A DNA stretch of 34,495 nt from Bacteroidota bacterium (lineage in GTDB: Bacteria > Bacteroidota > Bacteroidia > Chitinophagales > Saprospiraceae), in contig JACRAN010000274.1 of the NCBI GenBank assembly GCA_016234735.1, positions 1 to 34,495 on the forward strand, in the 5' to 3' direction. The notes under the pieces are model-generated. The model was given only the letters and a program-made list of their open reading frames with translations. It was not told the origin of the DNA and did not search any database. Positions 1-32,107 of this stretch are shown here, in pieces. The position numbers and the translations under genes are program-made. Numbering within the stretch: the stretch's first letter is position 1; the number at the start of each line of letters is the position of its first letter.

Positions 1-2
1 AG

Positions 3-125
3 CTTAGGCTCTGGGAAATGGAATACAACCAGACCAGGCCCCACCAGGGCATCCAAAACCAGCCGCCCTCTCAAATGGTGAAAAGCCAGCACCCCCTTTG
101 GGCGTGCGTAACGGGCATAACCTAA
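3..125 (+). CDS. C-terminal end of an insertion-sequence transposase (partial, 5' end outside window)
   Basis: Reading from base 3, an open frame of 40 codons ends at TAA (123-125). It contains WEMEYNQTRPHQGIQNQPPS, which matches the end of DDE integrase-core transposases of the IS3/IS481 kind, where a YN..RPHQ motif follows the catalytic glutamate and precedes the C-terminus. Only the tail is visible, so neither the family nor the intactness of the element can be decided. No terminal inverted repeat could be identified downstream; a 7-bp-period tract follows the stop codon directly. The gene may be complete to the left of the window or may be a remnant. Confidence 0.6.
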   Translation, partial: LRLWEMEYNQTRPHQGIQNQPPSQMVKSQHPLWACVTGIT

Positions 126-167
126 TCAATCTATTCATCTAAAGTCTAATGTCTAATGTCTGCCTTT
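126..167. repeat. 7-bp-period tract after the transposase stop codon
   Basis: The bases right after the TAA at 123-125 divide into heptamers TCAATCT, ATTCATC, TAAAGTC, TAATGTC, TAATGTC, TGCCTTT. Two units are identical and the others share the TAAnGTC/TCATC pattern. It is one of a family of such tracts in this window, most of which start next to a stop codon. Confidence 0.6.
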
Positions 168-194
168 CGGGGTATATTTTCACAAAAAAACAAA

Positions 195-223
195 AAAGCC
201 CTGTTTAATAAAAACAGGGCTTT
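195..223 (-). terminator. Rho-independent terminator of the TPR gene
   Basis: A perfect 12-bp stem (AAAGCCCTGTTT at 195-206 with AAACAGGGCTTT at 212-223) encloses a 5-base loop. On the minus strand it is followed by a run of Ts (complement of the A-rich stretch at 181-197). It lies 37 bases past the stop codon of the minus-strand TPR gene and ends the minus-strand gene block. Confidence 0.85.
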
Positions 224-259
224 CGTAAATGTTCAATTCTTGCTTGCCCGCAGGCAAAA

Positions 260-1645
260 TCACTTCAATCGTACCCGCACCGTTTCGCCGATCCAGCAAG
301 GCACGGTCATGGAGTCACCTTCGTTCACCTTGCGCATGAACGCTTCCTCCTTCGCTGGGTAGTAGGCGCTGTAGCGCCCGATTTTGTTGCTCGCCTCGCC
401 GGCCACATCGCTGTCGATAGACTTGGCGTAGGCATATTTGTCAACGGCGGCCAACACGGCCAGCGAAGCCTCGAAGGCATCGCTGCCGCAGGAGTTGCTT
501 GTGGAGGCGTACATGTCGCCGATGAGCATGTAGGGCTGTCCCCAGCCGGGTTTGTAGTTGGCGGCAGTGCGGGCATGTTCCCTGGCAGCCGAGTAGCGGT
601 TCAACTGGCGGAACTCGATGGAGGCCATGTAGAAATAGTAGTTGGCTAACTTCTCTTTGTCTTTTGCACCTGCTTTTTCTTTATCGATGCCTGCATCGAA
701 TTTTTGCAATGCTTCACTGTATTTGCCTTCTTTGAAGAGCGTAATACCATGGTCGCCGGGGTTTTCGGCGTAGTAAGCAGCCATTTTGGCAGCGTTCTCC
801 TCCGTCACGATTTTTTCATAGCGGCTTTTCAATTCCGCTACGAAGGGGTCGTCTTCCGGGCAGCCCTGTTGCACGAGCTTGTTGTAGATGTACTTCAGCA
901 CCTCCGTGTCGTCCGGGTGGGCACGGTAGTCCGGTTCGAGTTTGCCCTTGAAGTAAGCACAGTCGAAGATTTCGCCTTCAATCTGGGCAAAAGTGCCGTT
1001 CATGGCATCTTTGGCCTGTTGGTAGGAATCCGCGTATTTTGCGTTGTTGGCGATGTTGAAGTCAGCGATTTCATTCAGCTTGTTGACGATATTCCTCGCT
1101 TCCGCTGCGTCCATTTGCTTGTTTTGGTACTCCCAAACGGCAATCGAAGCGTAGGGCTGGAAGACAACGTAGCTCGTGTTGTTACCACCTGCCTCAACAG
1201 CTTCCTGACACACTTTTTTGTTGTCGGGGTAAGTCGAGTTCAGCGTGTAGAACATTTCATACGCCTTCAGGCCCATCGCCAGTGCTTTCTCGTTCGGGTA
1301 GCATTGCGCCTGCTGGTCGAACAGCTTGAGCACCATGTTGGCATATTCTTTTTTCTGGGCTGCGTCAGTGGTGTTTTTGAATTTGTGGAGGTAAATTTTC
1401 CGCCCGTCCGCATAGTGCGTTGAACGCTGGCCATCGGCAGCGGGGGCACCTTCATAGGCTTTTTTCCAATAGTCGAAAGCTTTGTCATACTCTTCCGTTT
1501 TTATAAATTGGCGGTAGAGCACGTGTGCTTCTTCCAGTGCATCTTTCTGGGGCGACTTCATCCAGTTTTCGCACTGGCCGAACGCAGGCACCGACCAGGA
1601 ACCTGCAACAAGAACAAAAACGAAAAACTTCATTACGTTCTTCAT
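260..1645 (-). CDS. Exported tetratricopeptide-repeat protein
   Basis: This 461-residue protein begins with a signal peptide (MKNVMKFFVFVLVAGSWSVP, probable cleavage after AFG near residue 23), so it is exported to the periplasm or outer membrane. The body is alpha-helical with tetratricopeptide-like repeats; the clearest are at about residues 305-385, where EGKYSEALQKFDAGI and a second helical pair with RQLNRYSAAREHARTAANYK follow each other. TPR proteins act as protein-binding scaffolds; no catalytic motif is seen. In Bacteroidota a TPR gene often follows coaX and an outer-membrane protein gene and precedes lptC; here the first two neighbours match but no lptC follows, only a terminator and a transposase end. 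It is probably co-transcribed with the upstream beta-barrel gene (84-base gap). A second in-frame ATG at codon 5 is an alternative start. The specific role is unknown. Confidence 0.85.
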   Translation of the reverse strand: MKNVMKFFVFVLVAGSWSVPAFGQCENWMKSPQKDALEEAHVLYRQFIKTEEYDKAFDYWKKAYEGAPAADGQRSTHYADGRKIYLHKFKNTTDAAQKKEYANMVLKLFDQQAQCYPNEKALAMGLKAYEMFYTLNSTYPDNKKVCQEAVEAGGNNTSYVVFQPYASIAVWEYQNKQMDAAEARNIVNKLNEIADFNIANNAKYADSYQQAKDAMNGTFAQIEGEIFDCAYFKGKLEPDYRAHPDDTEVLKYIYNKLVQQGCPEDDPFVAELKSRYEKIVTEENAAKMAAYYAENPGDHGITLFKEGKYSEALQKFDAGIDKEKAGAKDKEKLANYYFYMASIEFRQLNRYSAAREHARTAANYKPGWGQPYMLIGDMYASTSNSCGSDAFEASLAVLAAVDKYAYAKSIDSDVAGEASNKIGRYSAYYPAKEEAFMRKVNEGDSMTVPCWIGETVRVRLK

Positions 1646-1676
1646 AATCAGTGGTTTACGATTGAATTTTTGAACT

Positions 1677-1725
1677 ATTGACTGTGAACCGCCGACTGCC
1701 GACTGCTGGCTGCCAACCGCTCAAC
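1677..1725. repeat. 7-bp-period tract between the beta-barrel and TPR genes
   Basis: The plus strand reads as seven consecutive heptamers: ATTGACT, GTGAACC, GCCGACT, GCCGACT, GCTGGCT, GCCAACC, GCTCAAC. The tract fills most of the 84-base gap and begins four bases past the TAA of the minus-strand beta-barrel gene (1730-1732). Positions 1702-1720 match 18 of 19 bases of the tract before coaX (3782-3800), in inverted orientation. Confidence 0.7.
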
Positions 1726-1729
1726 GAGA

Positions 1730-3058
1730 TTATCCGAATTTGCGTTTAAAGAACCAGGAGTTGTCGTTAAGAGTGAAGCCGAGGGCTATTTTCACAAAGG
1801 ATTCCTTGATGGCATCGGAGGTGTTGTACTGTCCCAATTCCACTGCGACGTTCACAAATGAGGTCTTCTGACGGGCCAGGATCACCGGCAGCCCGACCCC
1901 CAACGTGAAGGCAGTTTGTGTCAGGTCATCCAGCCGGGGGTCAGTGCGATGATAAAAACCGGCCCGGTACCTGATGCGCTTGAGGTAGTTGTTGTACGAT
2001 GAAATATCCGGGATGTACTCAGCCCCCACAGCTACCCGGTAACTGTCGTACAGCGTTTCCTCCTTGGCTTCGTTTTCGTACTTGCTCCAGCCTGCGAAAT
2101 TGTACTCGGCACCCACCCTCAACTTGCCTGGGTTTTGGTACATGAAGCCCAGCGTCCATTCGGCAGGTAGTTTGCCGTTCCCCTCATCGTCTTCCAAAAA
2201 TTGAAGGGTGTCCGATTGGTTGTAGGTTGGGTTGTCGCGGATGCGCAGCACGGTGCTGCGGGTATTGAAATTGGTAGCCGTGTTGCCGTAGGCACCCACA
2301 ATCAGGCTCTTGCCAGTGTAAACCTCCTCCTCTGTTTTCTTTTTTTCAAGATTAAATTGATACTGTGCCCCCGCTGACCAGAGCAGGCCCCGCACGGAAA
2401 TATTGTCCTTGAAAATATCCTGGTACGACACCGGCAGGTTCGGAAAACTCACCGCCCGGGTGCTCTCCAACTGGCCAAACAGGTAGCCGATGTTCACTCC
2501 GCCCGAAAAATTCTTGTAGCGGACGGCGTTGCCCCACAGCAATTTGTTGGTGCCGCCGGTGCCCTGGTAAATATTGACGGTGGTGTCCACTTCGGGTATT
2601 GCTTCGGTGGTTTCAATGTCGTAGCCGACCGAGGTGTTTGGCAGCAGGGCCAGGTTCATTCCCCAAAAAACTTTGCGTTTTTTCTTCGATAAAACGTCGT
2701 TGAGGGCATTCCGCATGGGGAAGGCCAGCGCCAGATGGCTCGCGTTGCCCGTCCAGATGGATGCTTTTTCGCCTTTGAATTCCAGGTTGGCGTGTTCGGC
2801 GTACATACCCACCTCAAAAGTGGCTGCATTCAGCCAGGCGTAGGAAGCCGGGTTTTGTAAATTGATGTGCAACGGGTCAATGTAAGCTGCGGACAGTCCG
2901 GCAAAGCCGACGGAAGAAAGCGAGTGGTTGGCCAGTTCCCCCAGTCCGATGCGGGAGTAGGGCGCATTGTCTTTCGGCTGCGCCGAAAGGATGAGCGTGA
3001 AAAACAAAAAAGGCAACGTGGTCAAACCGCCCCTAAAAACCTTCTGAAAGTTCAGCAT
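1730..3058 (-). CDS. Outer-membrane beta-barrel protein, conserved in Bacteroidota beside coaX
   Basis: A 442-residue protein with a signal peptide (residues 1-26, hydrophobic core FLFFTLILSA) and then alternating hydrophobic and polar strands typical of a beta-barrel, ending in aromatic-rich WFFKRKFG. The motifs NAPYSRIGLGEL (about residue 31) and NLQNPASYAW (about residue 70) are characteristic of an uncharacterised outer-membrane family found next to type III pantothenate kinase genes in Bacteroidota. The fold is probably FadL/PorV-like, but transport or T9SS function cannot be assigned from sequence alone. Its start codon overlaps the end of coaX by 26 bases, which implies translational coupling and one transcript with coaX and the TPR gene. 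Confidence 0.8.
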   Translation of the reverse strand: MLNFQKVFRGGLTTLPFLFFTLILSAQPKDNAPYSRIGLGELANHSLSSVGFAGLSAAYIDPLHINLQNPASYAWLNAATFEVGMYAEHANLEFKGEKASIWTGNASHLALAFPMRNALNDVLSKKKRKVFWGMNLALLPNTSVGYDIETTEAIPEVDTTVNIYQGTGGTNKLLWGNAVRYKNFSGGVNIGYLFGQLESTRAVSFPNLPVSYQDIFKDNISVRGLLWSAGAQYQFNLEKKKTEEEVYTGKSLIVGAYGNTATNFNTRSTVLRIRDNPTYNQSDTLQFLEDDEGNGKLPAEWTLGFMYQNPGKLRVGAEYNFAGWSKYENEAKEETLYDSYRVAVGAEYIPDISSYNNYLKRIRYRAGFYHRTDPRLDDLTQTAFTLGVGLPVILARQKTSFVNVAVELGQYNTSDAIKESFVKIALGFTLNDNSWFFKRKFG

Positions 3059-3773
3059 TATGTTGTAAAATTTTATTCAGCCCAAGCAGGACTAAATTTT
3101 GGTGCGCGAATATCTTGGTTTTGGTGTTTTTAGCAAAGAAATCGGTGTCCCCACCCGTTAAAATCACCCGAAGTGGCCGAAATTCTTTCCTGCACCACCC
3201 AATGAAGCCCTCCATTTCCAGCAATGCCCCCAATTCGCCGCCATTTCGGACGGCATTTTCCGTGCTGTCGCCGAGCCTGGGAGCCATTTCGAGGCCCTGC
3301 GACACCAGCGGCAGCCTCGCCGTGAAGTGGTGCATGGCCTTCAAACGCATCTCCACGCCGGGCGAAATATTGCCGCCCAAAAACTCGCCCGCCGCACTCA
3401 GCACATCCATCGTGATGCAGGTGCCGGTATCTATCACGAGGCAATTTTCACCGGGAAACAAGTGAAAAGCGCCCGCCGCCGCCGCGATGCGGTCTTTGCC
3501 GAGCGTGTGCGGTGTCTGGTATCGAATGGCGATTGGCAAGGGCGTTTGCGCGGTGAGTTCAAGGTAAAAGAAGTTTTTTTTCAAAAAACCTTCTACCCCC
3601 TCCGGTATTTGGGACACACTGGAAAGGATGATTTTTTCAACGTTTTGGTTGTATGCCAGCGATTTCAATGCCTCCATCCCCAGCGTTTCCCACACTTCTT
3701 TGCGCACCAGTTCGTCGCCCTGAAAAACGGCGACTTTCGTGCGGGTATTTCCGATGTCGATGGCGAGGTTCAT
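3033..3773 (-). CDS. coaX: Type III pantothenate kinase
   Basis: CoaX phosphorylates pantothenate with ATP, the first step of coenzyme A synthesis, in the cytoplasm. The 246-residue length is normal for the family. Visible hallmarks are the N-terminal phosphate-binding DIGNTRTKVAVF (D6), the central VIDTGTCITMD with the catalytic-site aspartate, GGNISPG, and ILTGGD near the C-terminus, all in the order expected for the ASKHA fold. The start is ATG at 3773, one residue pair before the conserved LAIDIGNT. The 3' end overlaps the beta-barrel gene. The spacer upstream, to the moaA stop, consists almost wholly of 7-bp-period sequence. Confidence 0.95.
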   Translation of the reverse strand: MNLAIDIGNTRTKVAVFQGDELVRKEVWETLGMEALKSLAYNQNVEKIILSSVSQIPEGVEGFLKKNFFYLELTAQTPLPIAIRYQTPHTLGKDRIAAAAGAFHLFPGENCLVIDTGTCITMDVLSAAGEFLGGNISPGVEMRLKAMHHFTARLPLVSQGLEMAPRLGDSTENAVRNGGELGALLEMEGFIGWCRKEFRPLRVILTGGDTDFFAKNTKTKIFAHQNLVLLGLNKILQHNAELSEGF

Positions 3774-3780
3774 GTCCGTG

Positions 3781-3836
3781 TGCGGTTGGCAGTCAGCAGT
3801 TTTGAATATCCCGATTTCTCAATTTCCAATTTCATC
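3781..3836. repeat. 7-bp-period tract between moaA and coaX
   Basis: The tract occupies nearly the entire 58-base spacer between the coaX start and the moaA stop codon (3832-3834), which it overlaps. Heptamers on the plus strand are TGCGGTT, GGCAGTC, AGCAGTT, TTGAATA, TCCCGAT, TTCTCAA, TTTCCAA, TTTCATC. Two unit types are joined: a GGCAGTC type (shared with 1702-1720, inverted) on the coaX side and a CCAATTT type (as after ruvA) on the moaA side. Any coaX promoter or ribosome-binding site must lie in or right beside this sequence. Confidence 0.65.
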
Positions 3837-4821
3837 CACCGATGGTTGCCATCGACTCCGACACCGGCGATCCAAAGCGACGGTTGGCTTCTGCCTCGAA
3901 GCCGTCTTTGGCGCGGTGGCCAAGTGCTTCGAGGAAGGCCGTGCGCACCTGTTCGTCGGTCGCACCTGCCCGCACTAAGTTTTTGATATTGAAAACGCCG
4001 TCGTCGTAGAGGCAGGTTTTCAACATGCCCTGCGGTGTCAGGCGGATGCGGTTGCAGGTGCCGCAGAAGGTACGGCTGTAGGCGGCGATGATGCCGACCG
4101 TGCCCTGATGCCCCGGGATCCGATAGTTGGCGGAGGTGGAAAACGGCGGGTCGGGTATTTTTTCGATGCCTGGAAAATGTGCCTGCAACGCCTCCAAAAT
4201 GCGCTGGTGGCTCCACCAAAGTTGGTCGAAGTGGGCTGCCCCGCCGTTGAACGGCATCTCCTCGATGAACCGCACGCCCACCGGATGGTCTTTCGCCAGC
4301 AGGGCCAGCGGCGGCAGGTCGTTGTCGTTTTTGCCCTCCATCATCACGGCGTTGATTTTGGTGGGAATGCCGTGCGAGAGCAACGCCTCGAAGGTGGCCA
4401 TCACAGCGTCGAAGGCATCCCGCCGGGTGATTTGAAAAAACAAATCCCGGTCGAGCGTGTCCAAACTGAGGTTGACGGAGCGGATGCCCATTTTTTTCAG
4501 GGCGGGTACCAGCGGTGCCGTCACGACGCCGTTGGTGGTGATGTGGATTTGGCGCAGCCCGTCCAGGCGGCTGATTTCACCCAAAAAATCCATCATGTCG
4601 CGCCGGATGAACGGCTCGCCGCCAGTGATGCGGATTTTCTCGATGCCCATGCCCGCCATCAGCCCCACGATGCGCAGCATTTCCTCGTAGGTCATCAATT
4701 CCTCCTTCGGCATGTACTGGATGCCTTCCTCCGGCATGCAATAAAAACAGCGGAGGTTGCAGCGGTCGGTGACGGCCAGCCTCAGGTAATTTATTGGCCG
4801 GTGGTGGTTGTCGAAAAGCAA
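3832..4821 (-). CDS. moaA: GTP 3',8-cyclase (molybdenum cofactor synthesis)
   Basis: MoaA is a radical SAM enzyme that, with MoaC, converts GTP to cyclic pyranopterin phosphate, the first step of molybdopterin synthesis. The N-terminal radical-SAM cluster motif CNLRCFYC, the SAM-binding GGEPFIR, the C-terminal cluster CGTCNRIRL...CLY and the essential terminal GG (MATIGG) are all present. The frame is open to an ATG at 4932, but that start would put the coding region across the sprA terminator and a 7-bp repeat. The family normally begins just before FDNHHRPINYLRL, so I place the start at a TTG (4819-4821), giving 330 residues, a typical length. No other molybdenum cofactor gene is in the window. 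The start choice is inference. Confidence 0.93.
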   Translation of the reverse strand: MLFDNHHRPINYLRLAVTDRCNLRCFYCMPEEGIQYMPKEELMTYEEMLRIVGLMAGMGIEKIRITGGEPFIRRDMMDFLGEISRLDGLRQIHITTNGVVTAPLVPALKKMGIRSVNLSLDTLDRDLFFQITRRDAFDAVMATFEALLSHGIPTKINAVMMEGKNDNDLPPLALLAKDHPVGVRFIEEMPFNGGAAHFDQLWWSHQRILEALQAHFPGIEKIPDPPFSTSANYRIPGHQGTVGIIAAYSRTFCGTCNRIRLTPQGMLKTCLYDDGVFNIKNLVRAGATDEQVRTAFLEALGHRAKDGFEAEANRRFGSPVSESMATIGG

Positions 4822-4855
4822 TTGCGGATTTCGGATTTCGGATTTCGGATTGGGG
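4821..4855. repeat. 7-bp-period tract abutting the moaA 5' end
   Basis: Plus-strand heptamers are ATTGCGG, ATTTCGG, ATTTCGG, ATTTCGG, ATTGGGG. The unit ATTTCGG is the exact reverse complement of CCGAAAT, the unit of the tract at 4963-4999, so the two form an inverted pair around the sprA terminator. The tract sits where the ribosome-binding site of moaA would be if the TTG at 4819-4821 is the start, or encodes an N-terminal extension (PNPKSEIRNP) if translation starts upstream. Confidence 0.75.
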
Positions 4856-4912
4856 GCGTCCGTATTTCCGGGATTTAGAGTCTTTTTGCAAAGTTGCGAT
4901 TTTTTAAACAGA

Positions 4913-4943
4913 AAAAGCCCTGAACTTGACATTCAAGGCTTTT
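4913..4943 (-). terminator. Rho-independent terminator of sprA
   Basis: A 12-bp stem with one mismatch (4913-4924 with 4932-4943, loop 7 bases) is followed on the minus strand by a T-rich stretch (TTTTTCTGTTT). It lies 55 bases beyond the sprA stop codon and upstream of the preferred moaA start, so sprA and moaA are probably separate transcripts. Confidence 0.75.
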
Positions 4944-4962
4944 CCTTTTGTGTTACCCTACA

Positions 4963-4999
4963 CCCCAATCCGAAATCCGAAATCCCGAAATCCGAAATC
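4963..4999. repeat. 7-bp-period tract after the sprA stop codon
   Basis: Plus-strand units are CCCCAAT, CCGAAAT, CCGAAAT, one extra C, CCGAAAT, CCGAAAT. The last unit overlaps the sprA stop (4998-5000) by one base, so on the coding strand the array starts inside the TGA. It is inverted relative to the tract at 4821-4855. Confidence 0.8.
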
Positions 5000-7900
5000 A
5001 CAACGAGAACCGCACCGTCACACCGCTTCGGATGTTGGTGGTCGGGTAGCCCTGCGAGGTCTTCGGCACGTTGCGGGTGTAGTCGAAGAAGAAACGCAGG
5101 GAAAGCTGCTTGTTCAACTGGTAGGTGACCGCTGGGGCGATGGACACCCTGCGGCTGCCGCGGCTCTCCTCTTCCGTGTCGGTCACGAGTTCGTGGATGG
5201 TCGTGATGTCGTCCCGGATGGAGAAGTCGAAGTTGAAGTCGAGGTCGCCTGCATTGTTTTGGCTGTTGCGGCTGCCGGGGCGGTTAGGCACTGCCGGCTT
5301 GGCATCTTTTTTCGGAGTGCGGCCTTTCTTCTTTTTCGGGGCGAGGAATCCGATTTTTGCCTCCTTGATTTTGTACCCGAAATTGATGGTGAAATCCTCC
5401 GCTTTCGTTTCGTGCAGGCGGCCGGTGCCGAGCAATTCGAGGCGAAGGGTACGGCTGCTTTTGTACTCTACTTTGAACGACATGTCGTTTTTCAAGCGAA
5501 CATCCACCCCGATGAGCGGGTTGAACTGCTCGTCGATTTGCAGGTCGGGGATTTCAAATCGGGAGTAATAATCGAGGTTCGGCTCGTTCAGTTTCGTCGG
5601 GTCGAACTGGTCGTACTGGCGGTCCGTGTCGAACGTGTTCACTGCCAGTTTGCCCACGTAACCGTGCGTGATGGAGATGTTCTGGAAAATATTTTCCAGT
5701 GCGCCCAACTTCGCCAGGCCGTTGTAAGTCAACCGCCAGTTGGGCCGGGGGATGGTTTTGATGATCACATCGCCGACGTAGTTGTTGCTGACTTTCATCG
5801 TGTTGGCATCCTGGCCGGTGTAGGCGGCGATGAAGGCAGGCAGCAGCACGTTCTGCTGGAACGGCCCGTAGCCTTTCGGGAAATCCTCAAATGCAGGATC
5901 CGGGTTGTCGTGCTGACCGATGCCAAGACGGTTGGCGATGATTTCCCGGTTCGTGTCAAATTCTTTGAACAAGCCCGTCAGATCATCCTCGAACAGTGTT
6001 TTCAACGCAGAGTAGGACACGTCGAACCGGCCGAAGTCCGTGATGTTGGCGTGCTTCCACTCATTCTGGAAATACTGGCCGGGCACGCCCGAATCTTCGT
6101 AGCGGCGGAACTCCTCGGCATGGTTCTTCGACTTGGAGCGCTTGGCCTCCACGTCCACCCGGAAATCGCTGAACGGCTCCAGCGTCAGTTTCCCTTCCAT
6201 GTTCTGCTGGTAATTTTGCGTCACGGTTTTCGGCAGGGCATATTCGAGGTCTGGCGTTATCCACTGCCAGTTTTTGTAGAGCCAATCTTCGCTGCTGTAA
6301 TAATCTTCGGGCCGGATGTTCGGCTGGCCACCTGCCACAAAACCCCAACCCGGCGACGTGAATTTGTTCATCCCGAACAATTTGCTGTCCGGCAGGTAGC
6401 CGGGCACCACCGTACCGTAGTCTTCCGAGTATTTCACACGGAGCTTGCGCACCACCATGAGCGGACGGATGAGCACCCGTTCGATGGTGCCCGGATTGCC
6501 GTCTCTGTCTTTTTTGTCCTTGCCTTTTTTGCCGTCGGCGTCCGTACCCTGGGCATCGCCGCCAGTGTCGCCAGTGTTGCGGCGGTTTTTGGCGGGGCCG
6601 TCCTTGCTGTTGCCCTTGTCCTTCGAGTCGCTCTTGCTGTCCTTGCCTCCGCTGTCGCCTCCGGGGCGCTGTTTGGAGTTGATTTTTTTCAGGTACTTCG
6701 AGTAGTTGTACAGTTTTTCAAAATCCAGGTCTGCTTCCGCCTGGCGGGCCTGGCCGTTGGTGATGACGTTGCCGAGGGCACGGGCGTTCGGTGCCTGGCT
6801 GGCGGCATCCCAGGTATATTCGGCGTCCCAGGAAAGTTTGACGCTCGTCCAATCCAGGAACGGCAGGTTTTTCAACGGAACGCTGTAGGCCACGGTGTAC
6901 TGATGGCGGTAGCCTTTCGTGCGCCCGAAATCCCGGACATTGTTCCAGATGGAATCCCGGCGGTACTGCCCGATGTCGGCGATGTATTTCGGGTCGTTCG
7001 GGTCGAGTTGGTTGCGTTCCAGCATCTTGATTTCATCGGGTTCGTCGATGACACCGACATTGTCGGCGTTGAACTTGAACTTGAGGTTTTTGGTAAAATC
7101 CCACTGCAAATCGTACCGGCGGTTCCATAGGAATTGCTTGTTGTAAAATGTGTTGTACAGCGGGTTGTCGCCTGCGAAGCGGTACTTCGTGGTGTTGAAA
7201 CGTCGGTCGAGGTCGGTGGTGAAACTGAACGAATTGGGCAGCGGATTGAAGTTCATTTCTTTGACAAACTTCAGGTATTTGTCGTTTTTGATGGCCTTTT
7301 TGAACGGTTCGATGTACTTCACGGTTCGCTGGAACGAGTAGTCGATGGCACCCCGGCGGCGGGTCAGCACGTCGTTTTCGATGATGGGGTCACGTCGGGT
7401 GGTTTCATCGAAACCATACGTGAAACTGAAATTCGAGATGTCCCAGGGCATCGGTTTCCGCTCTGTGTTCTTGCGCTCCTTGCGGACGTTGGTGAAGTTG
7501 TAGCTCTTGATTTTCGTGACGATTTGCGCAGCTTTCCGAATGGACTCCCGGTCGGCAGGGTCGGAGTTTTTCAGCTTGTCTTTCAGTTCAATGTCCAGGT
7601 CGTAGGGGTCGTACTGCGGGTTGCGGGTTTCGTTGGAGAACTGGAAGTAGAACGGCACTTGCAGCCCGATTTTTTCCGGCAGGAATTTGTCTAATTTTAT
7701 CTGTGCCGCCACGTCGTACTGGATGATTTGCTCCCGGCTGCGTTCGGCCAACTGCTGGTCGAGGGCACCGAACCCGATGGTGCTCGTTTTGCCCGACAGG
7801 GTCAGCGAGCCGAGGTCGGCCAACTGGATGTCGGCACGGGCAGTGGCAGCGATGCCGCCCCGCTCGTCGAGGCCGAATGCCCGAAGTTCGTTCACCCAGA

Positions 7901-10900
7901 TTTCCACGCTTTTTTTATCGCTGGGGTCGCAGTCGTCGCCTTCCTTTGGGTTGCGGATGCCCACCATCACCGCCTTCACGAGGCCGAGGTTGGGGTTGCC
8001 TTTGATGCGAAGCCGGGCACCCGGCACGTTGGGGTCGCCACCCGGGAATTCGTAAATCTGGCCCAGCGGGAAGTCGCTGGCATTGCGCTCGATTTTCATT
8101 TTCTTCAACAACTCGAAATCGACGCTCAAATCATTCTCCTCCGGCCACACAACCCGCTGATAATCAGGGTTATTTGGCTTTACTTGGGTGTCTTCGTCGG
8201 ACAACGTGAGCGGGATTTCGTACTCGTAAAAGTTGTTCTTGAAGTCGCTGCCCAACCGCACGAACACCCGCAGGTCGCCACTTTCCAGCGGCTCATCGCC
8301 CATGCCGCAGTCCGTTTGTTCAGCGTGTACGAACATTTTCAGCTTGCTGTAATACCGCATGTCGAGGTTCATGTTTTTGAACATGGCCCTGGAGTCGCCA
8401 TCTTCCAGTTCGCAGGCCCGCAGCGTGAGCGCCTGCTCATTTTGGTAGGCTTGGGGGTTCACACCGCCGAGCGCCTGTTCCCGACTGATGCCGGGAGGCA
8501 GCACGTAGTTGAACGGTGTGCGCTGGCTGTTTTCTTCGATGTTGACTTTGTTCAGTTCAAACAAGGTCTGGTTTTCAAAATCGGAAGGGTCGATGGCGAA
8601 GCAGGCATCGCCGAGGTCCTGCTTGTAGCGCCGCCACTGGTTGCGCACGAGGTCGAGCGTTGCGAAGCGGAACTGCACCGGCGCTTTGAAGTCTTTGAAA
8701 TACATCCGCATGAAACGGATGGATCGGAAGTCGCTGATGCCGCCCACTTTGCTGAAATTTTCGTCGGTCGCGGGCAGATCCAGCGGCACCCGGAAGCGGT
8801 ACCAGATGCGGCTGCCGCCACCGCTGATGGTGTCGGTGATGAACGGGTTGTCGAGGTCGATGCCCCGGCTGCCGTCGTATTTGATGGGGATTCGGTACTG
8901 GAAGTAGCCCTCCGTTTCGTTCAGTGTGCGGTCGCCGTCGAGGTCTTCGCCGTCGGGCAGCAGGGTAGATGCTGGCGAGGTGTTTTGGCCTTGCGTGATG
9001 GGGGTGTTGCCCTCCGTGCCGAAGTGCCGGTCGAATCGGTCGAGCAGTTTGGTGCCGCTGGGGTAGCCGTAGCGGAAGTGCTTGAAGTCGTCGTTCGAGG
9101 GGTCATCCATGATGGCTTTCCGGGCATCGGAGTCGAAGTTTGGGCCTGAAATGGCATTCAGGAAGTAGTCGAACTGTACCCGTTCCAGCGAATCCTGCAA
9201 GCCGTCGAGGCCCACGTCCTGGTACTGCCGGTTGTCGGGGTCGATGTCGAAGGCGTTGGTGATTTGTTGCGTGAGCGGCACACGGCCCCAGCCGGTGCGG
9301 GTGGCCCGTCGGCCCTTGGTGTTGGGGCCGGGGAGGCCGTTTTCAAAAAACTTCCGGGAGTCCGGCATGATGTCCTCCGAAATATTCCCGAAATTCAGGT
9401 AAATGTAGCCGTCCATGTCGCCGTTGGCGGCGGCGGGGTTGCCCTGGTCAAGCCCCGTGGTGTCCAGGAAGGGACTGAGCATCCAGAACTCCACGTACTC
9501 GATGTTGGCCGTCTGGAAATCGTTGGTGGTCAACTGCCGCATGATGCCTGCCCACCGCGTATCCGGTTCGAGCAGCTTGCCAAAGTTGTTCAAACCTGCC
9601 GAGTAGATGGTGCCGCCCGGCGGGTCGAAGTTGTAAGGCCCGCGGCGGTTGGGGTCGTACCGGACATCGAGAATCTGGGTGTAGGAGTTGAACTGGTTAG
9701 TAGTGGGCGTGAAGTTGGGGAAAATCTCCTGCTGGTTGATGTTCTGCGTGTACGGGTTCACGTTGTCGCCATCGCCGCGCAGCGAGCCGTCGGACTCGAT
9801 GCGGAACCAACTCAGGTGCGCCCGGTTCACCCCGGCCAGCGTCGTGTCCTTGAGTTGGGCTTCGGGGAACATCTCGTTTTGAGGCACACTGGCCATCACC
9901 CAGCCATTGTTCCCGATGATAGGTGCCTGGATGTTGAGTGGTTGGGCACTGCCCTCGAAGTCGTCGATGTACACCACGCCGCCTTTTTCATCGCCGACGG
10001 AATTTTCGTTGATGGCACGGGCGTGGCCGGGCTTGAGGGCTGCCGTTTCGGCAGCGAACGTGATGTTGGACGGTGCTTTCGTTGAAATGAACGGCAGTTT
10101 GTCCACCATCTTCGTGATCCACGGCACCTCGTTGCTGTAATTCATGTCGAGGCCGAAGATGCGGTTGTTGATGGGGTCGTCGCCGATGTTCACCTTCTTC
10201 GTGTAGGGCCGCTCGAAGAGGCGCAGGTAGGTACCGCCCAGCGTCAGGTGTTTGTTTACTTCGTAATCGGCACGAAGGCCGAGCATGGTTTTCGTCTGGA
10301 AGCCAAACAGCGAGTTGTCCTCAAAACCAACCTTGATGGGCGTACCGGAGTTGAGGTAGGCATCGTTCAAAATGCGCACTTTTCCGATGTTGTAGTCCAC
10401 TTCGAAATCCTGGCCCTCCTTGAGCGGGATGCCTCCGGCTGTTACCTTCACCGAGCCTTGCGGGATGTTGAAGGCCCCCAGCGAAATCTCGTTCGAGACG
10501 CTCGATTTGTACGAGCCTTCGATGGTGAAACGGTTGAATTCGGCGTACTCACGGGCGTTGAAAAGCGTCTGGGTGTAAAGTTGTTTGTACACAAACTTGG
10601 CGGCATCGGCAGGGTCGGTGAACTGCTTTTCCAGCGCACTGCCGAACGGCTCCAACACCGGGAACATGATGCGCCCGTTGCGGGATTGGATGGTCAGGCC
10701 GTCCACGTAGTCGAACACCCCGTCGGGCTGGGGGTCGTTCTGCACGTTGAGCTGGTCGAGGTTGAACACCCGCAGCAGCGGTACCCCGGCGAGGTTGGTG
10801 GAGGGTAAAAACCGTTTTTTGCCCTGGCCCGGGTCTTCGTAAAAAATATCGAGTTTGAAATCCTCCCTCGACACGTTGTACGCCCCGATGTTGTACACGT

Positions 10901-12557
10901 TTTTCATCATCAGGTCCCAGGTCGGGAGGTCCACCGGCTGGATGGTACTCTTCAACATCTTGACAAACAGCACGTTCTGCGTGGTGGTGTCCGAGTTTTG
11001 GGGCACGTCTTCGGCAATCTGGCCGATCTGGTAAATCGAGTCACGGTAGGTGTACTCGAAGGCCACACCCACCACCTGGTCGGGCTGGATGTTGATGTTG
11101 AGCGAAACAAAACCAAGCTCCGGGTGGAAGGTGTACTCGGTCGGCGACAGCAGGCGGGCAGTCACTTTTTCAAAATCACGGCCCTGCTGGAAGTTGAACG
11201 GCGGCGTTTTCAGCACGTTCACCACCCGTTCGACCTGCTTGGTGCGGGGGTCGTTGAGCAGCGCCCCGAAAATCGGGTTTGCATGGTTGTCGGGCAGTGC
11301 CTCGCCCTTGTTGTCGCGGAAAACCGGCACACTCGGCGGCTGCATGTCGGGCGAGGTGTTGGTCATGCGGGTCGTTTCACCCAGGTCGGCGATGGCGACG
11401 ATGTCGCGGATGTTCTCCGTCGCATTGCGGGTGTCGGTGACCCAAACCTGTATTTTCTGGATTTTGAAAAGCGACTTGATGACCGGCAGGTCGGAGAGCG
11501 CGCTCTCGAAGTTGTTGCGGTTGTAGTGGGTGAGCAGGAAGTGGCGGTTTTCATCGTAGGCATCGGCGAACACTTCGTACTCCTGGAACTGGCTGCCGCC
11601 TTGCAGGGTAATGCTTTCCTGCTCCGACTTCTGTTGCGAGGCCACGCCGGTGAGGCGCAGCTTGCCCCACTGGGTTTCCATTTTCAAACCAAACAAACTC
11701 TGGCTCCCCTGGATGAGGGTGCTTTTCAATGGCAGGCTCACGTTGCCCGCTTCGATTTTTTTGATGATGTCGTCTTCGCCGAAAGCATCGGTGTTGTAGT
11801 CGAGCTTCATGGTGTTGTCGAAGTCGAAAGTCGCCTGGGTGTTGTAGTTGGTGCTGAGTTTGAGCTTTTCGCCGATGGAGCCTTCCACGTTCATCTGGAT
11901 GTCCATGTCGAAGTCGAAACCGCCCTGGCGCTGTTGCCGTCGGGTGAAGCTGGGGTTTTGGATGTTGGAGAAATCCACCCCGAAGGTGAGGTCGATGTTG
12001 CCCTGCGGCTGGATGTCCACTTTGTTGCCGCCGAAGAGCCGTTCGATGAGCTGGTTTTTCACGTCCACTTTCCCGATGGGGTCGAGCCTGCCGGAGGCGC
12101 TGCGGCCCCCGCTGCTGCCGTTGAGTTGGTTGAAGTAATCCCGCTCCTGTTGCCGGGCCTGGTACTCCATGTATTCCTCGAAAGTCATGTAGGTGGGGGG
12201 GCGGAAGTAGTCGTCGCCGAGGCGCTCGGTGATGATGTACTGCCCGCTGACGGGGTCGTATTCTACGGTTTGTACTACGGAGGCAGGGTCCCTGAGGTCG
12301 AAAGGATTTGGGTTCGGGTTGTTGAGGAAGTCACCTGTACGGTCTTTGAGTGGTATCGTGTCCTGTGTTACGGAGAAAGGATGGGCGGTCAGGAGCGGTT
12401 CCCGGTCTGTGCCCGCAGGGGTGGCATTTTCATCTGCCAGGATATATTCGGGGGTGTAGGGGTTTTCAGGGAGGTTGTTGCTTCCCTGCACAGGAACGGT
12501 GAAAGTGCTCAGTCCGAATACCATCCAAAAACCTGGTAGTAAATTTCTCTTCTTCAT
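4998..12557 (-). CDS. sprA: T9SS outer-membrane translocon protein SprA (Sov)
   Basis: SprA is the giant outer-membrane beta-barrel through which folded T9SS substrates reach the cell surface, working with the PorV shuttle and plug proteins. At 2519 residues the length is in the usual range (about 2300-2500). It has a signal peptide (MKKRNLLPGFWMVFGLSTFT, probable cleavage near residue 25), family motifs such as FDYVDGLTIQSRNGRIMFPV, VYIDDFEGS (residue 862 on) and the late block NFNPLPNSFSFTTDLDRRFN, and ends in a typical strand, SGVTVRFSL. The position next to ruvA is the common Bacteroidota arrangement. Two charged, low-complexity stretches stand out: about residues 1960-2020 (rich in G, D, K, S) and about 2405-2440 (KKKKGRTPKKDAKP), probably loops outside the conserved barrel. 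A terminator follows. Confidence 0.97.
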   Translation of the reverse strand: MKKRNLLPGFWMVFGLSTFTVPVQGSNNLPENPYTPEYILADENATPAGTDREPLLTAHPFSVTQDTIPLKDRTGDFLNNPNPNPFDLRDPASVVQTVEYDPVSGQYIITERLGDDYFRPPTYMTFEEYMEYQARQQERDYFNQLNGSSGGRSASGRLDPIGKVDVKNQLIERLFGGNKVDIQPQGNIDLTFGVDFSNIQNPSFTRRQQRQGGFDFDMDIQMNVEGSIGEKLKLSTNYNTQATFDFDNTMKLDYNTDAFGEDDIIKKIEAGNVSLPLKSTLIQGSQSLFGLKMETQWGKLRLTGVASQQKSEQESITLQGGSQFQEYEVFADAYDENRHFLLTHYNRNNFESALSDLPVIKSLFKIQKIQVWVTDTRNATENIRDIVAIADLGETTRMTNTSPDMQPPSVPVFRDNKGEALPDNHANPIFGALLNDPRTKQVERVVNVLKTPPFNFQQGRDFEKVTARLLSPTEYTFHPELGFVSLNINIQPDQVVGVAFEYTYRDSIYQIGQIAEDVPQNSDTTTQNVLFVKMLKSTIQPVDLPTWDLMMKNVYNIGAYNVSREDFKLDIFYEDPGQGKKRFLPSTNLAGVPLLRVFNLDQLNVQNDPQPDGVFDYVDGLTIQSRNGRIMFPVLEPFGSALEKQFTDPADAAKFVYKQLYTQTLFNAREYAEFNRFTIEGSYKSSVSNEISLGAFNIPQGSVKVTAGGIPLKEGQDFEVDYNIGKVRILNDAYLNSGTPIKVGFEDNSLFGFQTKTMLGLRADYEVNKHLTLGGTYLRLFERPYTKKVNIGDDPINNRIFGLDMNYSNEVPWITKMVDKLPFISTKAPSNITFAAETAALKPGHARAINENSVGDEKGGVVYIDDFEGSAQPLNIQAPIIGNNGWVMASVPQNEMFPEAQLKDTTLAGVNRAHLSWFRIESDGSLRGDGDNVNPYTQNINQQEIFPNFTPTTNQFNSYTQILDVRYDPNRRGPYNFDPPGGTIYSAGLNNFGKLLEPDTRWAGIMRQLTTNDFQTANIEYVEFWMLSPFLDTTGLDQGNPAAANGDMDGYIYLNFGNISEDIMPDSRKFFENGLPGPNTKGRRATRTGWGRVPLTQQITNAFDIDPDNRQYQDVGLDGLQDSLERVQFDYFLNAISGPNFDSDARKAIMDDPSNDDFKHFRYGYPSGTKLLDRFDRHFGTEGNTPITQGQNTSPASTLLPDGEDLDGDRTLNETEGYFQYRIPIKYDGSRGIDLDNPFITDTISGGGSRIWYRFRVPLDLPATDENFSKVGGISDFRSIRFMRMYFKDFKAPVQFRFATLDLVRNQWRRYKQDLGDACFAIDPSDFENQTLFELNKVNIEENSQRTPFNYVLPPGISREQALGGVNPQAYQNEQALTLRACELEDGDSRAMFKNMNLDMRYYSKLKMFVHAEQTDCGMGDEPLESGDLRVFVRLGSDFKNNFYEYEIPLTLSDEDTQVKPNNPDYQRVVWPEENDLSVDFELLKKMKIERNASDFPLGQIYEFPGGDPNVPGARLRIKGNPNLGLVKAVMVGIRNPKEGDDCDPSDKKSVEIWVNELRAFGLDERGGIAATARADIQLADLGSLTLSGKTSTIGFGALDQQLAERSREQIIQYDVAAQIKLDKFLPEKIGLQVPFYFQFSNETRNPQYDPYDLDIELKDKLKNSDPADRESIRKAAQIVTKIKSYNFTNVRKERKNTERKPMPWDISNFSFTYGFDETTRRDPIIENDVLTRRRGAIDYSFQRTVKYIEPFKKAIKNDKYLKFVKEMNFNPLPNSFSFTTDLDRRFNTTKYRFAGDNPLYNTFYNKQFLWNRRYDLQWDFTKNLKFKFNADNVGVIDEPDEIKMLERNQLDPNDPKYIADIGQYRRDSIWNNVRDFGRTKGYRHQYTVAYSVPLKNLPFLDWTSVKLSWDAEYTWDAASQAPNARALGNVITNGQARQAEADLDFEKLYNYSKYLKKINSKQRPGGDSGGKDSKSDSKDKGNSKDGPAKNRRNTGDTGGDAQGTDADGKKGKDKKDRDGNPGTIERVLIRPLMVVRKLRVKYSEDYGTVVPGYLPDSKLFGMNKFTSPGWGFVAGGQPNIRPEDYYSSEDWLYKNWQWITPDLEYALPKTVTQNYQQNMEGKLTLEPFSDFRVDVEAKRSKSKNHAEEFRRYEDSGVPGQYFQNEWKHANITDFGRFDVSYSALKTLFEDDLTGLFKEFDTNREIIANRLGIGQHDNPDPAFEDFPKGYGPFQQNVLLPAFIAAYTGQDANTMKVSNNYVGDVIIKTIPRPNWRLTYNGLAKLGALENIFQNISITHGYVGKLAVNTFDTDRQYDQFDPTKLNEPNLDYYSRFEIPDLQIDEQFNPLIGVDVRLKNDMSFKVEYKSSRTLRLELLGTGRLHETKAEDFTINFGYKIKEAKIGFLAPKKKKGRTPKKDAKPAVPNRPGSRNSQNNAGDLDFNFDFSIRDDITTIHELVTDTEEESRGSRRVSIAPAVTYQLNKQLSLRFFFDYTRNVPKTSQGYPTTNIRSGVTVRFSL

Positions 12558-12880
12558 ATTTTATCAAAGAAAGTTGTGCGTAACGAACGTCCTACAAGTT
12601 TCAAAAGAAGTTCGGAAAGCTGAAAAGTTGCAGCAAATACAGGCTGTTTCGGCTTTCTTCCTTCAGGTGGAAACGCAGTCATGGAAAACAAGGGAGAACC
12701 GGGGCAGGCCGCCGGTACCGGAAGCAGGTTTTACGAGATGGGAACAGATAAGTTGGGAATCGTGGTAAATTTTGCTGATAGTCCATTCGTAAGGTCTAAA
12801 ATTCCGTGTTTTTCAAACTGATTTACCGCAAAAACGCTGAACGTGGCTTTGATTTTTCCGGCCACTGATATTTAACAGTT
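12558..12880. other. Intergenic region upstream of sprA with no gene seen
   Basis: The 411-base gap between sprA and ruvA contains no convincing coding region. Its ruvA side (12881-12969) is repeat sequence; this remaining part should carry the sprA promoter if sprA is transcribed separately. I found no TAnnTTTG box on the minus strand here. A 10-bp palindrome, CCGGTACCGG, lies at 12712-12721; its significance is unknown. Confidence 0.5.
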
Positions 12881-12969
12881 ATTGGGTGATTGAGATATTG
12901 GAGATTTGAGATTGGATATTCCGGCAGCCAAATTCAAATCTCTAATACCCAATATCCAATCTCCAATTT
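12881..12969. repeat. Paired inverted 7-bp-period tracts after the ruvA stop codon
   Basis: The left arm (12881-12922) reads ATTGGGT, GATTGAG, ATATTGG, AGATTTG, AGATTGG, ATATTCC. The right arm (12928-12969) reads CCAAATT, CAAATCT, CTAATAC, CCAATAT, CCAATCT, CCAATTT. The right arm ends on the first base of the ruvA stop (12969-12971). The arms are reverse complements of one another if shifted by one heptamer, and only 5 bases separate them, so the transcript could fold into a long imperfect hairpin. Confidence 0.8.
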
Positions 12970-13559
12970 CACGAAAGCTGCTTCAACGCCAGCCTGACCA
13001 ATTCTTCTACGGTTTTCACGCCGGGTTGTTCCTCCAGGACTTTGTTCAGGGCCTTTTGCGCCTGAATTTTGTTGACCTGCAACGACAGGAGCGCAGATAA
13101 CGCTTCCTGCCGGATGGTATTGTCCGCCGGGAGGAGCGAAAGTGGCATGTCGCCGCCAGATTTCACCATTTTGCTTTTCAGGTCGAGGATGATTTGCTTG
13201 GCGGTTTTTTGGCCTACGCCCTTCACTTTGCGCAGCGCCGCTTCGTTTTCGCCGATGATGGCCACCCTGATTTCGTCGGGGTTCATTTGCGAGAGCATCA
13301 CCTGCGCCGTCGTCGGCCCGATGCCCGACACGGAAATCAGGTGTGCGAACAGCACCCGTTCCTCCTCCTCGGCGAAGCCGTAGAGCGTGTGCGCATCTTC
13401 CTTGACGTGGTAGTAGGTCAAGATTTTCACGTGCTCCAGCTTTTCCACTTTCGCATACGTGAACAGGCTGATGTTGATGTGGTAGCCAATGCCCCCGGCC
13501 TCGACGACGATGTAGGTCGGCGATTTGAAATTGATGCTGCCTTTGATGTAGGTAATCAA
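12969..13559 (-). CDS. ruvA: Holliday junction branch migration protein RuvA
   Basis: RuvA binds Holliday junctions as a tetramer and loads the RuvB helicase for branch migration. The 196 residues match the family: N-terminal OB fold starting MITYIKGSINF, two helix-hairpin-helix motifs (LISVSGIGPTTAQVML and LRKVKGVGQKTAKQIILDL, about residues 74-125), and a C-terminal RuvB-binding helical domain ending EELVRLALKQLS. The start codon is TTG (13557-13559); no in-frame ATG lies upstream and the N-terminus fits the family exactly. It lies upstream of sprA on the same strand with a 411-base gap, and is divergent from the toxin-antitoxin pair. Confidence 0.96.
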   Translation of the reverse strand: MITYIKGSINFKSPTYIVVEAGGIGYHINISLFTYAKVEKLEHVKILTYYHVKEDAHTLYGFAEEEERVLFAHLISVSGIGPTTAQVMLSQMNPDEIRVAIIGENEAALRKVKGVGQKTAKQIILDLKSKMVKSGGDMPLSLLPADNTIRQEALSALLSLQVNKIQAQKALNKVLEEQPGVKTVEELVRLALKQLS

Positions 13560-13637
13560 TGGATACGGGATGTTTGATGAAATCAGGCAGCGAAGGTAGG
13601 AATTTTGGACGGGTTAGGGATGTTGCTGGTTTTGTGC

Positions 13638-13645
13638 TATTTTTG
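13638..13645 (+). promoter_or_regulatory. Candidate -7 promoter box of the toxin-antitoxin pair
   Basis: TATTTTTG fits the Bacteroidota -7 consensus TAnnTTTG and lies 20 bases before the antitoxin ATG. No clear TTTG sits at the expected -33 spacing; the nearest is TTAG at 13614-13617, so promoter strength is uncertain. Confidence 0.4.
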
Positions 13646-13665
13646 ACCATAAAATTGCTTTTGCG

Positions 13666-13980
13666 ATGGAAACCCTGCTAATAAAATATGAGTCACTTGA
13701 CCAATTTTCACAAAAATTGGTGTTGGACTTTGTGGATTTGCTCCTCAAAAGGCAAAATCCAAAGCCGTCGGCCTCTTCGCCCAAACTTAGGCCACGGGAC
13801 AAAAGAAAGTCTTCGGGCCTTGCCGTTGGAGACAACCAAGCCGAGCCTGGCAATACCCCTTTTGATTACCAGGCTTACCGCAAACAACTGCTTGCCTTGC
13901 GCCCGTGGTCAATCGAGGAGGTGAAGGAATTTGACGAAAACCTGGCTGCTTTCAAAAACATGACCTTCAAGGAATGGTAA
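13666..13980 (+). CDS. Antitoxin of a VapBC-type pair (DUF2281-like)
   Basis: This 104-residue acidic and basic mixed protein starts METLLIKYESLDQFSQKLVLDFVDLLL, a helical N-terminal segment like that of small DUF2281-type antitoxins found before PIN toxins. A disordered, proline- and lysine-rich middle (about residues 30-65) is followed by a C-terminal segment, PWSIEEVKEFDENLAAFKNM, which could wrap the toxin. Its last codons overlap the next gene by 7 bases (13974-13980), the usual coupling of antitoxin to toxin. Such antitoxins neutralise the toxin and often repress their own promoter. The family call rests on size, position and partner rather than on a diagnostic motif. Confidence 0.7.
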   Translation: METLLIKYESLDQFSQKLVLDFVDLLLKRQNPKPSASSPKLRPRDKRKSSGLAVGDNQAEPGNTPFDYQAYRKQLLALRPWSIEEVKEFDENLAAFKNMTFKEW

Positions 13981-14345
13981 TTGACAGCGCCATATTTATC
14001 GAATATCTGAGGTCAAGGAACAGGGAGCAAACAGCCCTGCTTAACCTGCCCATCGCACCCGCCTACTATGTTTCGGACGTTACTGTTTTTGAGTTGTTCA
14101 TGGGGGCAAAGGACGAGGCAAAATGGAAAGAAGTCGAGGTCGTGCTTGGCCCAATGATAAGGCTTCCTTTTAATTATGCCGCTGCCGTGGAGGCGGCCAA
14201 AATTTACCAAATACTTCAGAAACAGGGCAATATCATCGAGTTCAGGGATATTTTCATTGCAGCAACTGCGCTCGTCAACCAACTGCCCGTCAGAACCCTG
14301 AACGTCAAGGATTTTTCCCGCATACCTGGCCTCGAACTGGCCTAA
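13974..14345 (+). CDS. VapC-like PIN-domain ribonuclease toxin
   Basis: A 123-residue protein with the PIN-domain acidic residues in the right order: D4 in MVIDSAIFIEYL, E40 in VTVFELFMGA, D92 in FRDIFIAATAL, plus the closing segment TLNVKDFSRIPGLEL with N110/D113. These residues bind the metal ions used to cut RNA. VapC toxins commonly cleave tRNA or rRNA when freed from their antitoxin; the target here is unknown. Length is slightly below the usual 130 residues but the domain looks whole. AAGGA just before the ATG gives a usable ribosome-binding site inside the antitoxin gene. Confidence 0.88.
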   Translation: MVIDSAIFIEYLRSRNREQTALLNLPIAPAYYVSDVTVFELFMGAKDEAKWKEVEVVLGPMIRLPFNYAAAVEAAKIYQILQKQGNIIEFRDIFIAATALVNQLPVRTLNVKDFSRIPGLELA

Positions 14346-14378
14346 ACTCAGCCAGCTTCCCTCCCCAAAAAAATCATT

Positions 14379-14386: not shown

Positions 14387-14393
14387 GCGCACG

Positions 14394-32089: not shown

Positions 32090-32107
32090 AAATGTACTTA
32101 TCGTTGT

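Follow-up and report, generated by a model that had tools for sequence, protein, structure and literature searches.

Heptamer repeats were described in cyanobacteria around 1990, and we know of no accepted origin for those of cyanobacteria, Xanthomonas or Bacteroidota. The closest account concerns the GGGAATC and GGGGA(C/T)T heptamers of Xanthomonas and Nostoc. In the parts of that paper available to us, these have a period of 7, prefer four units and overlap stop codons, and their G-rich strand is the coding strand downstream of stops and the non-coding strand upstream of starts (PMC4692102). The same parts report 70 and 75 inverted pairs in two Xanthomonas genomes and few in Nostoc, few repeats between divergent genes, intragenic shares of 11% and 7%, and generally no association with mobile elements (PMC4692102). 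The TAACTGA repeats of Beggiatoaceae, cyanobacteria and Bacteroidetes are likewise intergenic heptamer arrays by starts and stops. They consist of one unit and, in the main organism, lie mostly near starts; the portion of the paper at hand reads them as regulatory and does not link them to IVP (PMC4679880).

Two further systems combine repeats with a partner gene. In the IVS of 23S rRNA, an S23/IVP gene is enclosed by complementary ends, which pair into a long stem; the available text calls these elements selfish, with hypothetical mobility, and S23/IVP proteins of no known function (PMC4990558). REPINs are palindromes with many gene-less copies, and each of their RAYT partner genes is found beside its own palindrome family, as far as the accessible part of the source describes them (PMC3116915).

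Here we examine heptamer tracts in a member of the Saprospiraceae (Bacteroidota). Judging from sequence comparison, we consider it probable that they are arms of selfish IVP/S23 (PF05635, TIGR02436) elements, and mostly of gene-less hairpin derivatives of such elements. The basis of this account is linkage, geometry, and presence or absence at orthologous sites. As far as the parts seen of the two sources go, placement, orientation, four-unit length and inverted pairs are already known for Xanthomonas and partly for Nostoc (PMC4692102), and a selfish IVS with an S23 ORF is known in 23S rRNA (PMC4990558). Among the literature matches listed (titles and abstract beginnings), none connects IVP/S23 with heptamer repeats, which is not proof of absence in print.

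Heptamer Tracts in the Window

The window, the whole stretch of DNA analysed (34,495 nt), is the entire contig G000:C204 of a 4.88-Mb genome in 359 contigs. The original prediction was that heptamer tracts begin at stop codons, five genes being followed at once by a tract. The relevant features are as follows.

126–161, + strand: C-type heptamer tract past the TAA (123–125) of a transposase fragment; clean lag-7 signal from 138 only
1688–1713, − strand: beta-barrel tract, GCAGCCAGCAGTCGG on the − strand; called by the detector
3782–3834, no strand assigned: degenerate pair in the coaX-moaA spacer, G-type 3782–3805 and C-type 3811–3834; by eye
about 4821–4855, + strand: G-type arm (ATTTCGG)n adjoining the moaA start codon; TRF array 4821–4851, arm 4822–4855
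4856–4962, no strand assigned: native spacer between the sprA and moaA arms, with a terminator-like hairpin (by eye)
4963–4999, + strand: C-type arm at the sprA stop; TRF
12884–12970, no strand assigned: heptamer hairpin of the GATATTG/GAGATTG family at the ruvA stop; called from 12894
14619–14653, + strand: C-type heptamer tract within ORF 14394–16931; TRF
15214–15260, + strand: second C-type heptamer tract within the same ORF; TRF
24083–24132, + strand: heptamer tract within the − strand ORF 23428–27648; TRF
32079–32093, + strand: short tract 14 nt from the stop of the − strand gene at 32108; loosest setting only

All five stops are followed by a tract in some form, the moaA, transposase and beta-barrel sites being weaker. 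The overlap foreseen at ruvA is present (stop 12969–12971, tract to 12970), and this hairpin folds as RNA at −28.5 kcal/mol (z −3.4). At sprA the tract also overlaps the TGA, by two bases and not one (stop 4998–5000, tract to 4999). The tract said to overlap the moaA TGA (3832–3834) can be read by eye at about 3811–3834 but was missed by the strict detector. It is part of a degenerate pair that occupies most of the coaX-moaA spacer and whose arms come from different families; folded as RNA, this pair does no better than shuffled sequences (z +0.93) and does not pair. A tract does follow the transposase TAA, as claimed from the very next base, but its lag-7 signal is clean only from 138; its orientation is opposite to the usual rule. 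The beta-barrel tract had been placed 4 nt past the stop (1730–1732); the called tract starts 16 nt downstream, and degenerate units, by eye, reach 4 nt. No tract was called in the corresponding gap of five relatives (125–139 nt as printed; own 96).

TRF reports five heptamer arrays in the window: three inside ORFs, one at the moaA start codon (TTG, 4821–4819 on the − strand) and one at the sprA stop. Because arrays also lie inside ORFs and at the moaA start, the rule that tracts begin at stop codons is incomplete. The reading frame of ORF 14394–16931 is unbroken across its tract at 14619–14653. By eye, this 845-aa ORF encodes MurF followed by alanine racemase, with both tracts in the MurF part, and a small gene pair at 13666–14345, between ruvA and this ORF, reads, again by eye, as an antitoxin and a PIN-domain toxin. 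We found no IVP gene in the window and no Rfam match there above the gathering score. At 34124–34494 a 135-bp tandem repeat (2.7 copies, 82% matches), by eye encoding a D/N/G/C-rich repeat, reaches the contig end.

Tracts Lie at Gene Ends with a Fixed Orientation

We extended the analysis to a genome sample of 60 stretches plus the window (732,035 bases, GC 53%), with genes called by our own gene finder, whose starts can be wrong. Eight of the sampled own-genome stretches, and six of 20 stretches from relatives, were picked for visible tracts; tract densities are inflated by this preselection, and within-gap placement should not be affected. The sample holds 106 tracts of period 7 and 21 of period 8, against 0–4 each for periods 4, 5, 6, 9, 10, 11 and 13. 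The unit GATTTCG occurs at 29 places.

The gaps contain 50 strict tracts: for 26 the closest gene end is a stop, always within 23 nt, and for 24 it is a start, within 9 nt in 15 cases. Where at least 60 nt of free room was available, 15 of 28 strict tracts come no farther than 10 nt from a start or stop codon (null mean 4.5, maximum 10 in 1000 draws). The 20 stretches from relatives (13 other genomes of the genus and one family member) give 15/25 within 10 nt (null 2.5, maximum 7 in 500). The predicted enrichment near stops is seen in this sample of the genome, in which the distance check did not refute it; since starts are adjoined too and many tracts lie within ORFs, the enrichment at stops is strong but the statement that tracts begin there is only part of the picture.

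Orientation follows a simple rule. The + strand is G-rich at the left gap edge in 32/35 cases and C-rich at the right edge in 32/33, together 64/68; relatives obey it at 12/12 left and 7/7 right edges. In a separate set of 80 Bacteroidota loci chosen by moaA, a strict tract occurs in six. Of ten tracts there with at least 60 nt of room, eight lie within 10 nt of stops (null 1.3), and orientation is kept in 19/24. No IVP gene was found among these 80 loci, so this set is uninformative on the IVP link discussed below.

As described in the available parts of the Xanthomonas and Nostoc account, the heptamers there share with ours the outward G-rich strand, four units, inverted pairs and stop overlap; unlike them, our tracts comprise dozens of unit families in one genome, many ORF copies and an IVP partner gene (PMC4692102). 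The TAACTGA arrays resemble ours as intergenic heptamers at gene ends, in overlapping phyla, and differ, by the accessible description, in being a single unit, where we see many units and an IVP link (PMC4679880).

Tracts Pair into Hairpins That Probably Replace Spacers

The usual form is a G-rich arm, a loop of 10–12 nt and a C-rich arm, about 72 nt in total. The G-rich arm comes first in 60 pairs and second in one; a single right arm is counted in two of the 60 rows. Median length is 72.5–73 nt, alike in gaps (38 hairpins) and ORFs (22). The two arms of a pair agree at six or more of seven unit positions in 49/60 and at five or fewer in 11/60; consensus units in two-armed gaps agree at six or more of seven positions in 23/26 (3.4 expected). 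Loops vary among loci by eye, with the exception of one tandem pair: at 948–1105 of L016, two near-identical hairpins of the TTAGA family, with identical loops, stand in direct tandem 82 nt apart.

Hairpins fit tightly between genes. The median distance from hairpin edge to stop is 1.5 nt, and among edges within 15 nt of gene ends a greater distance is kept at starts (p 2e-5). We compared the spacer left outside the hairpin with element-free gaps, excluding 47 single-arm gaps and gaps above 1500 nt: a median of 4.5 nt is left in eight convergent hairpin gaps, compared with 85 nt in their 56 element-free counterparts (p 6e-4), and 25 tandem gaps retain 11 nt versus 134 nt in 224, with at most 15 nt left in 15 of the 25. 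Tandem genes flank 25 of 35 hairpin gaps. Divergent hairpin gaps are rare (2/80 gaps; 145 and 690 nt remain).

The near-filling of convergent gaps and the scarcity of divergent ones would suit hairpins kept by the host as transcription terminators or stabilizers of mRNA 3′ ends, which would explain their position at stops. Five of seven stretches folded as RNA, chosen by us, reach z ≤ −5, and in Xanthomonas, according to the part of the paper available, transcript starts or ends are more frequent at repeats able to form G4 (PMC4692102). Nevertheless, we regard this explanation as improbable. Intrinsic terminators are G+C-rich hairpins followed by a T run; a T-rich run adjoins 8/38 gap hairpins and is absent from 30/38. 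Furthermore, 22/60 hairpins lie within ORFs, the 25/35 tandem gaps often place the right arm a few nucleotides before a start codon, and the moaA pair does not fold. Nor does any of the 35 terminator-like sites at 1–20000 of the window coincide with a tract. The suggested link to transcript 3′ ends is thus weakly supported at best, and the notion of a link specific to stop codons is not supported, because arms are also found 2–9 nt from start codons as well as within ORFs.

Slippage of chance heptamers, possibly favored by quadruplexes with four G-runs, the reading given in the available part of the Xanthomonas paper (PMC4692102), has in our estimate a very small chance of being the origin. 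Unit variants do expand within tracts (for example, at 6905–6985 of L009), and 54/120 arms have four or more GG runs, making a two-layer quadruplex possible. Arms without any GG are, however, equally long (median 4.4 units, n = 28, versus 4.3, n = 92), and identical units recur at many places, as the 29 copies of GATTTCG illustrate. The GGG runs needed for a three-layer quadruplex, in contrast to the Xanthomonas and Nostoc heptamers as far as described, are rare here: only 7/120 arms have four (PMC4692102).

Hairpins Are Absent from Some Orthologous Gaps

The prediction had offered, as another possibility, an insertion process. This idea gains support from relatives, where tracts look like the arms of inserts that are missing from some orthologous gaps. 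In GatC→LolD, our genome has 84 nt including a hairpin, with only about 3 nt outside it, and eight relatives have 23–37 nt without one; three further relatives have 65, 96 and 148 nt, the 96 nt of G011 being, by eye, a hairpin of another period. In LolD→CobAT, where the second gene is missing in three genomes, the own gap is 89 nt, compared with 19–61 nt in four apparently hairpin-free relatives; the others (G008 70, G003 443, G011 237 and G010 29 nt) include some with repeats.

In two of the five gaps compared, the relatives do not simply show an empty site. Comparable in 12 of 14 genomes, the gap before FBPase contains heptamer hairpins in our genome, G013 and G012, and octamer-like ones, by eye, in G001 and G009. 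Five others have 42–267 nt, with a called tract in one (G011), and G004 and G007 carry a longer insert in which heptamer arms surround a four-helix-bundle ORF. Behind YidC (12 of 13 comparable), the own gap is 66 nt and those elsewhere 44–178 nt, several with hairpins of other units or periods.

The GlmS→DUF4290 gap (13 genomes) bears out the statement that placement is independent of unit sequence, holding different units in different species. GATGAGG-like hairpins occur in our genome, G007, G009 and G012, AATGATG in G001, GAGTTAT in G013 and a degenerate GATT type, by eye, in G006. At least one tract is called in G004, G010 and G011, and none in G008, G002 and G003.

An orthologous gene without the tract, as proposed in the prediction, is provided by sprA, which ends identically in G009, G001 and G004 with no tract called at the stop (by eye). 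We also considered that stop codons might be made by the tracts, through ORFs running into them, and rejected this idea: the sprA and moaA proteins end identically in tract-free relatives (sprA by eye). Behind moaA, G007/G012 and G005 have called tracts of different units, our own is degenerate, and G009 and G004 have none.

On the start side of moaA, the arm is shared with G006, G007 and G012, with other unit variants. Because this arm recurs in three relatives, two of which have a different upstream gene, arms can be independent. The sprA/moaA pair was not inserted as one hairpin, because the spacer between its arms is native and contains an equally native terminator-like hairpin; a counterpart of this spacer is present in relatives without the sprA-side arm. 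These arms around a native spacer, together with pairs made of different families, are the main facts that the IVP account does not cover.

Insertion also affects a protein. A loop of AroB has a plain 11 residues in five genomes and in-frame, tract-bearing inserts in eight. In our genome and G001 the two arms of the insert belong to different families. Because units, and even families, differ between species at AroB, units turn over and position and period persist. In G009 and G013 (L124 and L125 hold these copies), the insert has a left arm only, along with unrelated-looking coding DNA. Rickettsia palindromic elements are palindromes inserted in frame within protein genes, as the AroB alignment indicates here; we know of no period-7 arms or partner gene for them.

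IVP/S23 Genes Carry Arms of the Same Kind

We obtained 133 PF05635 matches from the 14 genus genomes, 16 of them in our own, and none from 14 control genomes; six of the genus proteins were checked as PF05635/TIGR02436. From the 133 matches, 110 loci were fetched, yielding 104 distinct genes with both flanks present and fewer than 200 residues. Across their flanks, 89/104 reach an inverted-repeat score of at least 14, compared with 11/600 mismatched IVP flanks (1.8%) and 2/98 small genes. Fifteen of the 104 fall below the threshold. In our own genome, 10 of 14 scored genes have inverted flanks; of the four that do not, L375 scored negative because its start was mis-called. An earlier set gave inverted flanks for 71/86 IVP genes versus 5/402 ordinary genes, and a G-type tract upstream with a C-type tract downstream for 42/86 versus 14/402. 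The called arms comprise 56 heptamers and 19 octamers; this period-8 class (19/75) is seen at L286, L295, L319, L373, L377 and L388, among others.

Arm and protein are linked by lineage. The arm unit is shared by 25/31 IVP pairs whose proteins are at least 70% identical and whose flanks differ; agreement falls to 4/29 at 55–70% and 1/76 at 45–55% identity, and is about 1–3% below 55%. Overall, 30 of 136 pairs with at least 45% identity share a unit (shuffled mean 4.0, maximum 12 in 2000). This comparison leaves out 20 pairs with shared flanks, and its pairs are not independent, falling by eye into about ten clades.

The elements with an IVP gene also sit where the solitary hairpins sit. In 46/63, the stop of the upstream ORF lies within 10 nt of the element start (null 3.7%), and elements examined singly end, like solitary hairpins, a few bases before start codons. 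In our genome, L375 has GATTGCG/GATTTCG arms, the same family as the sprA/moaA arms of the window; by eye, its left arm overlaps a TGA and its right arm ends beside the next ATG. L374 extends from a TGA to 7 nt before an ATG, with GATTTAC arms, which L372 has too. The ordered arm GATTTACGANTGACGATTTACGA is common to solitary and IVP copies (12 matches, L374 included), and the main solitary unit families recur in IVP arms (by eye; by exact pattern for GATTTAC). Like the 23S IVS as described in the part of the source seen, these elements place the IVP gene between complementary, stem-forming ends (89/104 genes); unlike it, with its location in 23S rRNA helices, 46/63 of them start at the stop of a long ORF and those on plasmids, where genes are annotated, have protein genes as neighbors; their ends are 7- or 8-nt tandem arrays, and many copies are gene-less (PMC4990558).

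The association with one partner gene recalls REPINs, and the genome has two Y1 matches, so that a Y1 transposase moving the hairpins, by the similar logic of palindromic copies plus one partner, was examined. We give this explanation scarcely any credence. At L116 the Y1 gene lies between CAACGGG...CCCGTTG hairpins of its own and no heptamer tract is called, and at L117 a heptamer hairpin lies about 140 nt downstream of the Y1 ORF and not as a flanking pair. As far as the accessible text on REPIN/RAYT allows comparison, the partner there is a Y1 transposase (PMC3116915); here it is PF05635, and no heptamer pair flanks the Y1 genes. The short hairpins of the Y1 gene on contig G000:C218 (L116) are a separate REP-like family.

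Alternatively, a repair process that makes repeats might build each arm on its own, one at either end of a break or a replaced spacer, which would explain the invariably G-type left arms on the 3′ end and the differing loops. Constant geometry across unrelated units (60 to 1), loops that, by eye, change from locus to locus except in the L016 tandem pair, different-family arms at one site and the sprA/moaA arms around a native spacer all fit this idea. We nonetheless find it quite improbable: it does not account for the link between arm unit and IVP lineage or for ordered unit variants shared among loci, and the genome has no RVT_1 match. The last result (E ≤ 0.001) also led us to reject a telomerase-like reverse transcriptase adding repeats to ends.

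A Possible Route to Flush Placement

If the tracts are arms of IVP elements, the protein would act in trans on the arms, keeping both IVP elements and gene-less hairpins spreading, the latter as passengers. Insertions would survive only where both neighboring genes stay intact, leaving compact spacers and surface loops. The start side would retain some 5–8 nt for translation initiation and the stop side would need none, and the old spacer would often be replaced, not merely enlarged. Flush placement may then result from purifying selection and spacer loss combined.

A different source of flush placement is compatible with the IVP-element explanation: the insertion process itself might recognize gene junctions (a stop in translated mRNA, or a transcribed spacer) in place of selection acting on random insertions. 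Random insertion would prefer long gaps, in contrast to the 15/25 tandem gaps with at most 15 nt left (versus a median of 134 nt in the 224 element-free ones), and 46/63 IVP elements start at a stop codon. We still think it unlikely, as placement near starts and copies in ORF loops indicate that stops are not required, and the same pattern would arise if the old spacer were lost after insertion. Because the preference for empty spacers exceeds random gap insertion, a taste for transcribed gene junctions is possible.

The nearest solved relative of the IVP proteins is 2gsc (XCC0516, E 4e-21), XCC standing for Xanthomonas campestris. Five chains are listed for each of the structures 2gsc and 2rld. 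The proteins bAvd and Avd are matched weakly, below the cut-offs. For PF05635 we know of no catalytic role, and the TRAP ring offers a precedent for a ring that reads its RNA repeats. The accessible part of the IVS source describes X. campestris S23p as a homopentamer (PMC4990558). By analogy, one might tentatively view IVP/S23 elements as a distinct mobile class, although we hold this to be doubtful: a ring protein would read about 4–5 units of 7 or 8 nt, one per subunit, and direct junction insertion with spacer loss, and the 23S IVS, the cyanobacterial and Xanthomonas heptamers and the present tracts would be its products.

Reading the tracts as IVP elements would explain the apparent aiming of heptamer repeats at stop codons and may explain why puzzlingly similar repeats occur in several bacterial groups. 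It also suggests that the repeats remodel spacers and extend the surface loops of enzymes, AroB for example, with additional peptides. With unit, protein lineage and placement linked, protein–repeat matching, binding and movement become testable.

IVP Loci with Arms Occur in Other Phyla

One IVP used as a tblastn query against plasmids gave 30 records, mostly cyanobacterial, from which 18 loci were read. Inverted flanks score at least 14 in 11/18, a value that 20 shuffles per locus at most equal. The arm-bearing loci include Nostoc, Anabaena, one of two Calothrix, Pseudanabaena, Geminocystis, Azospirillum and Gemmatirosa; in six of the remaining seven, a tract is called on at least one side. 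Wherever genes are annotated, the plasmid IVP genes lie between protein genes. On cyanobacterial plasmids (L392, L395 and L396), an armed IVP gene stands inside a CRISPR operon, twice between cas6 and cas4 and once between cas10 and cmr3.
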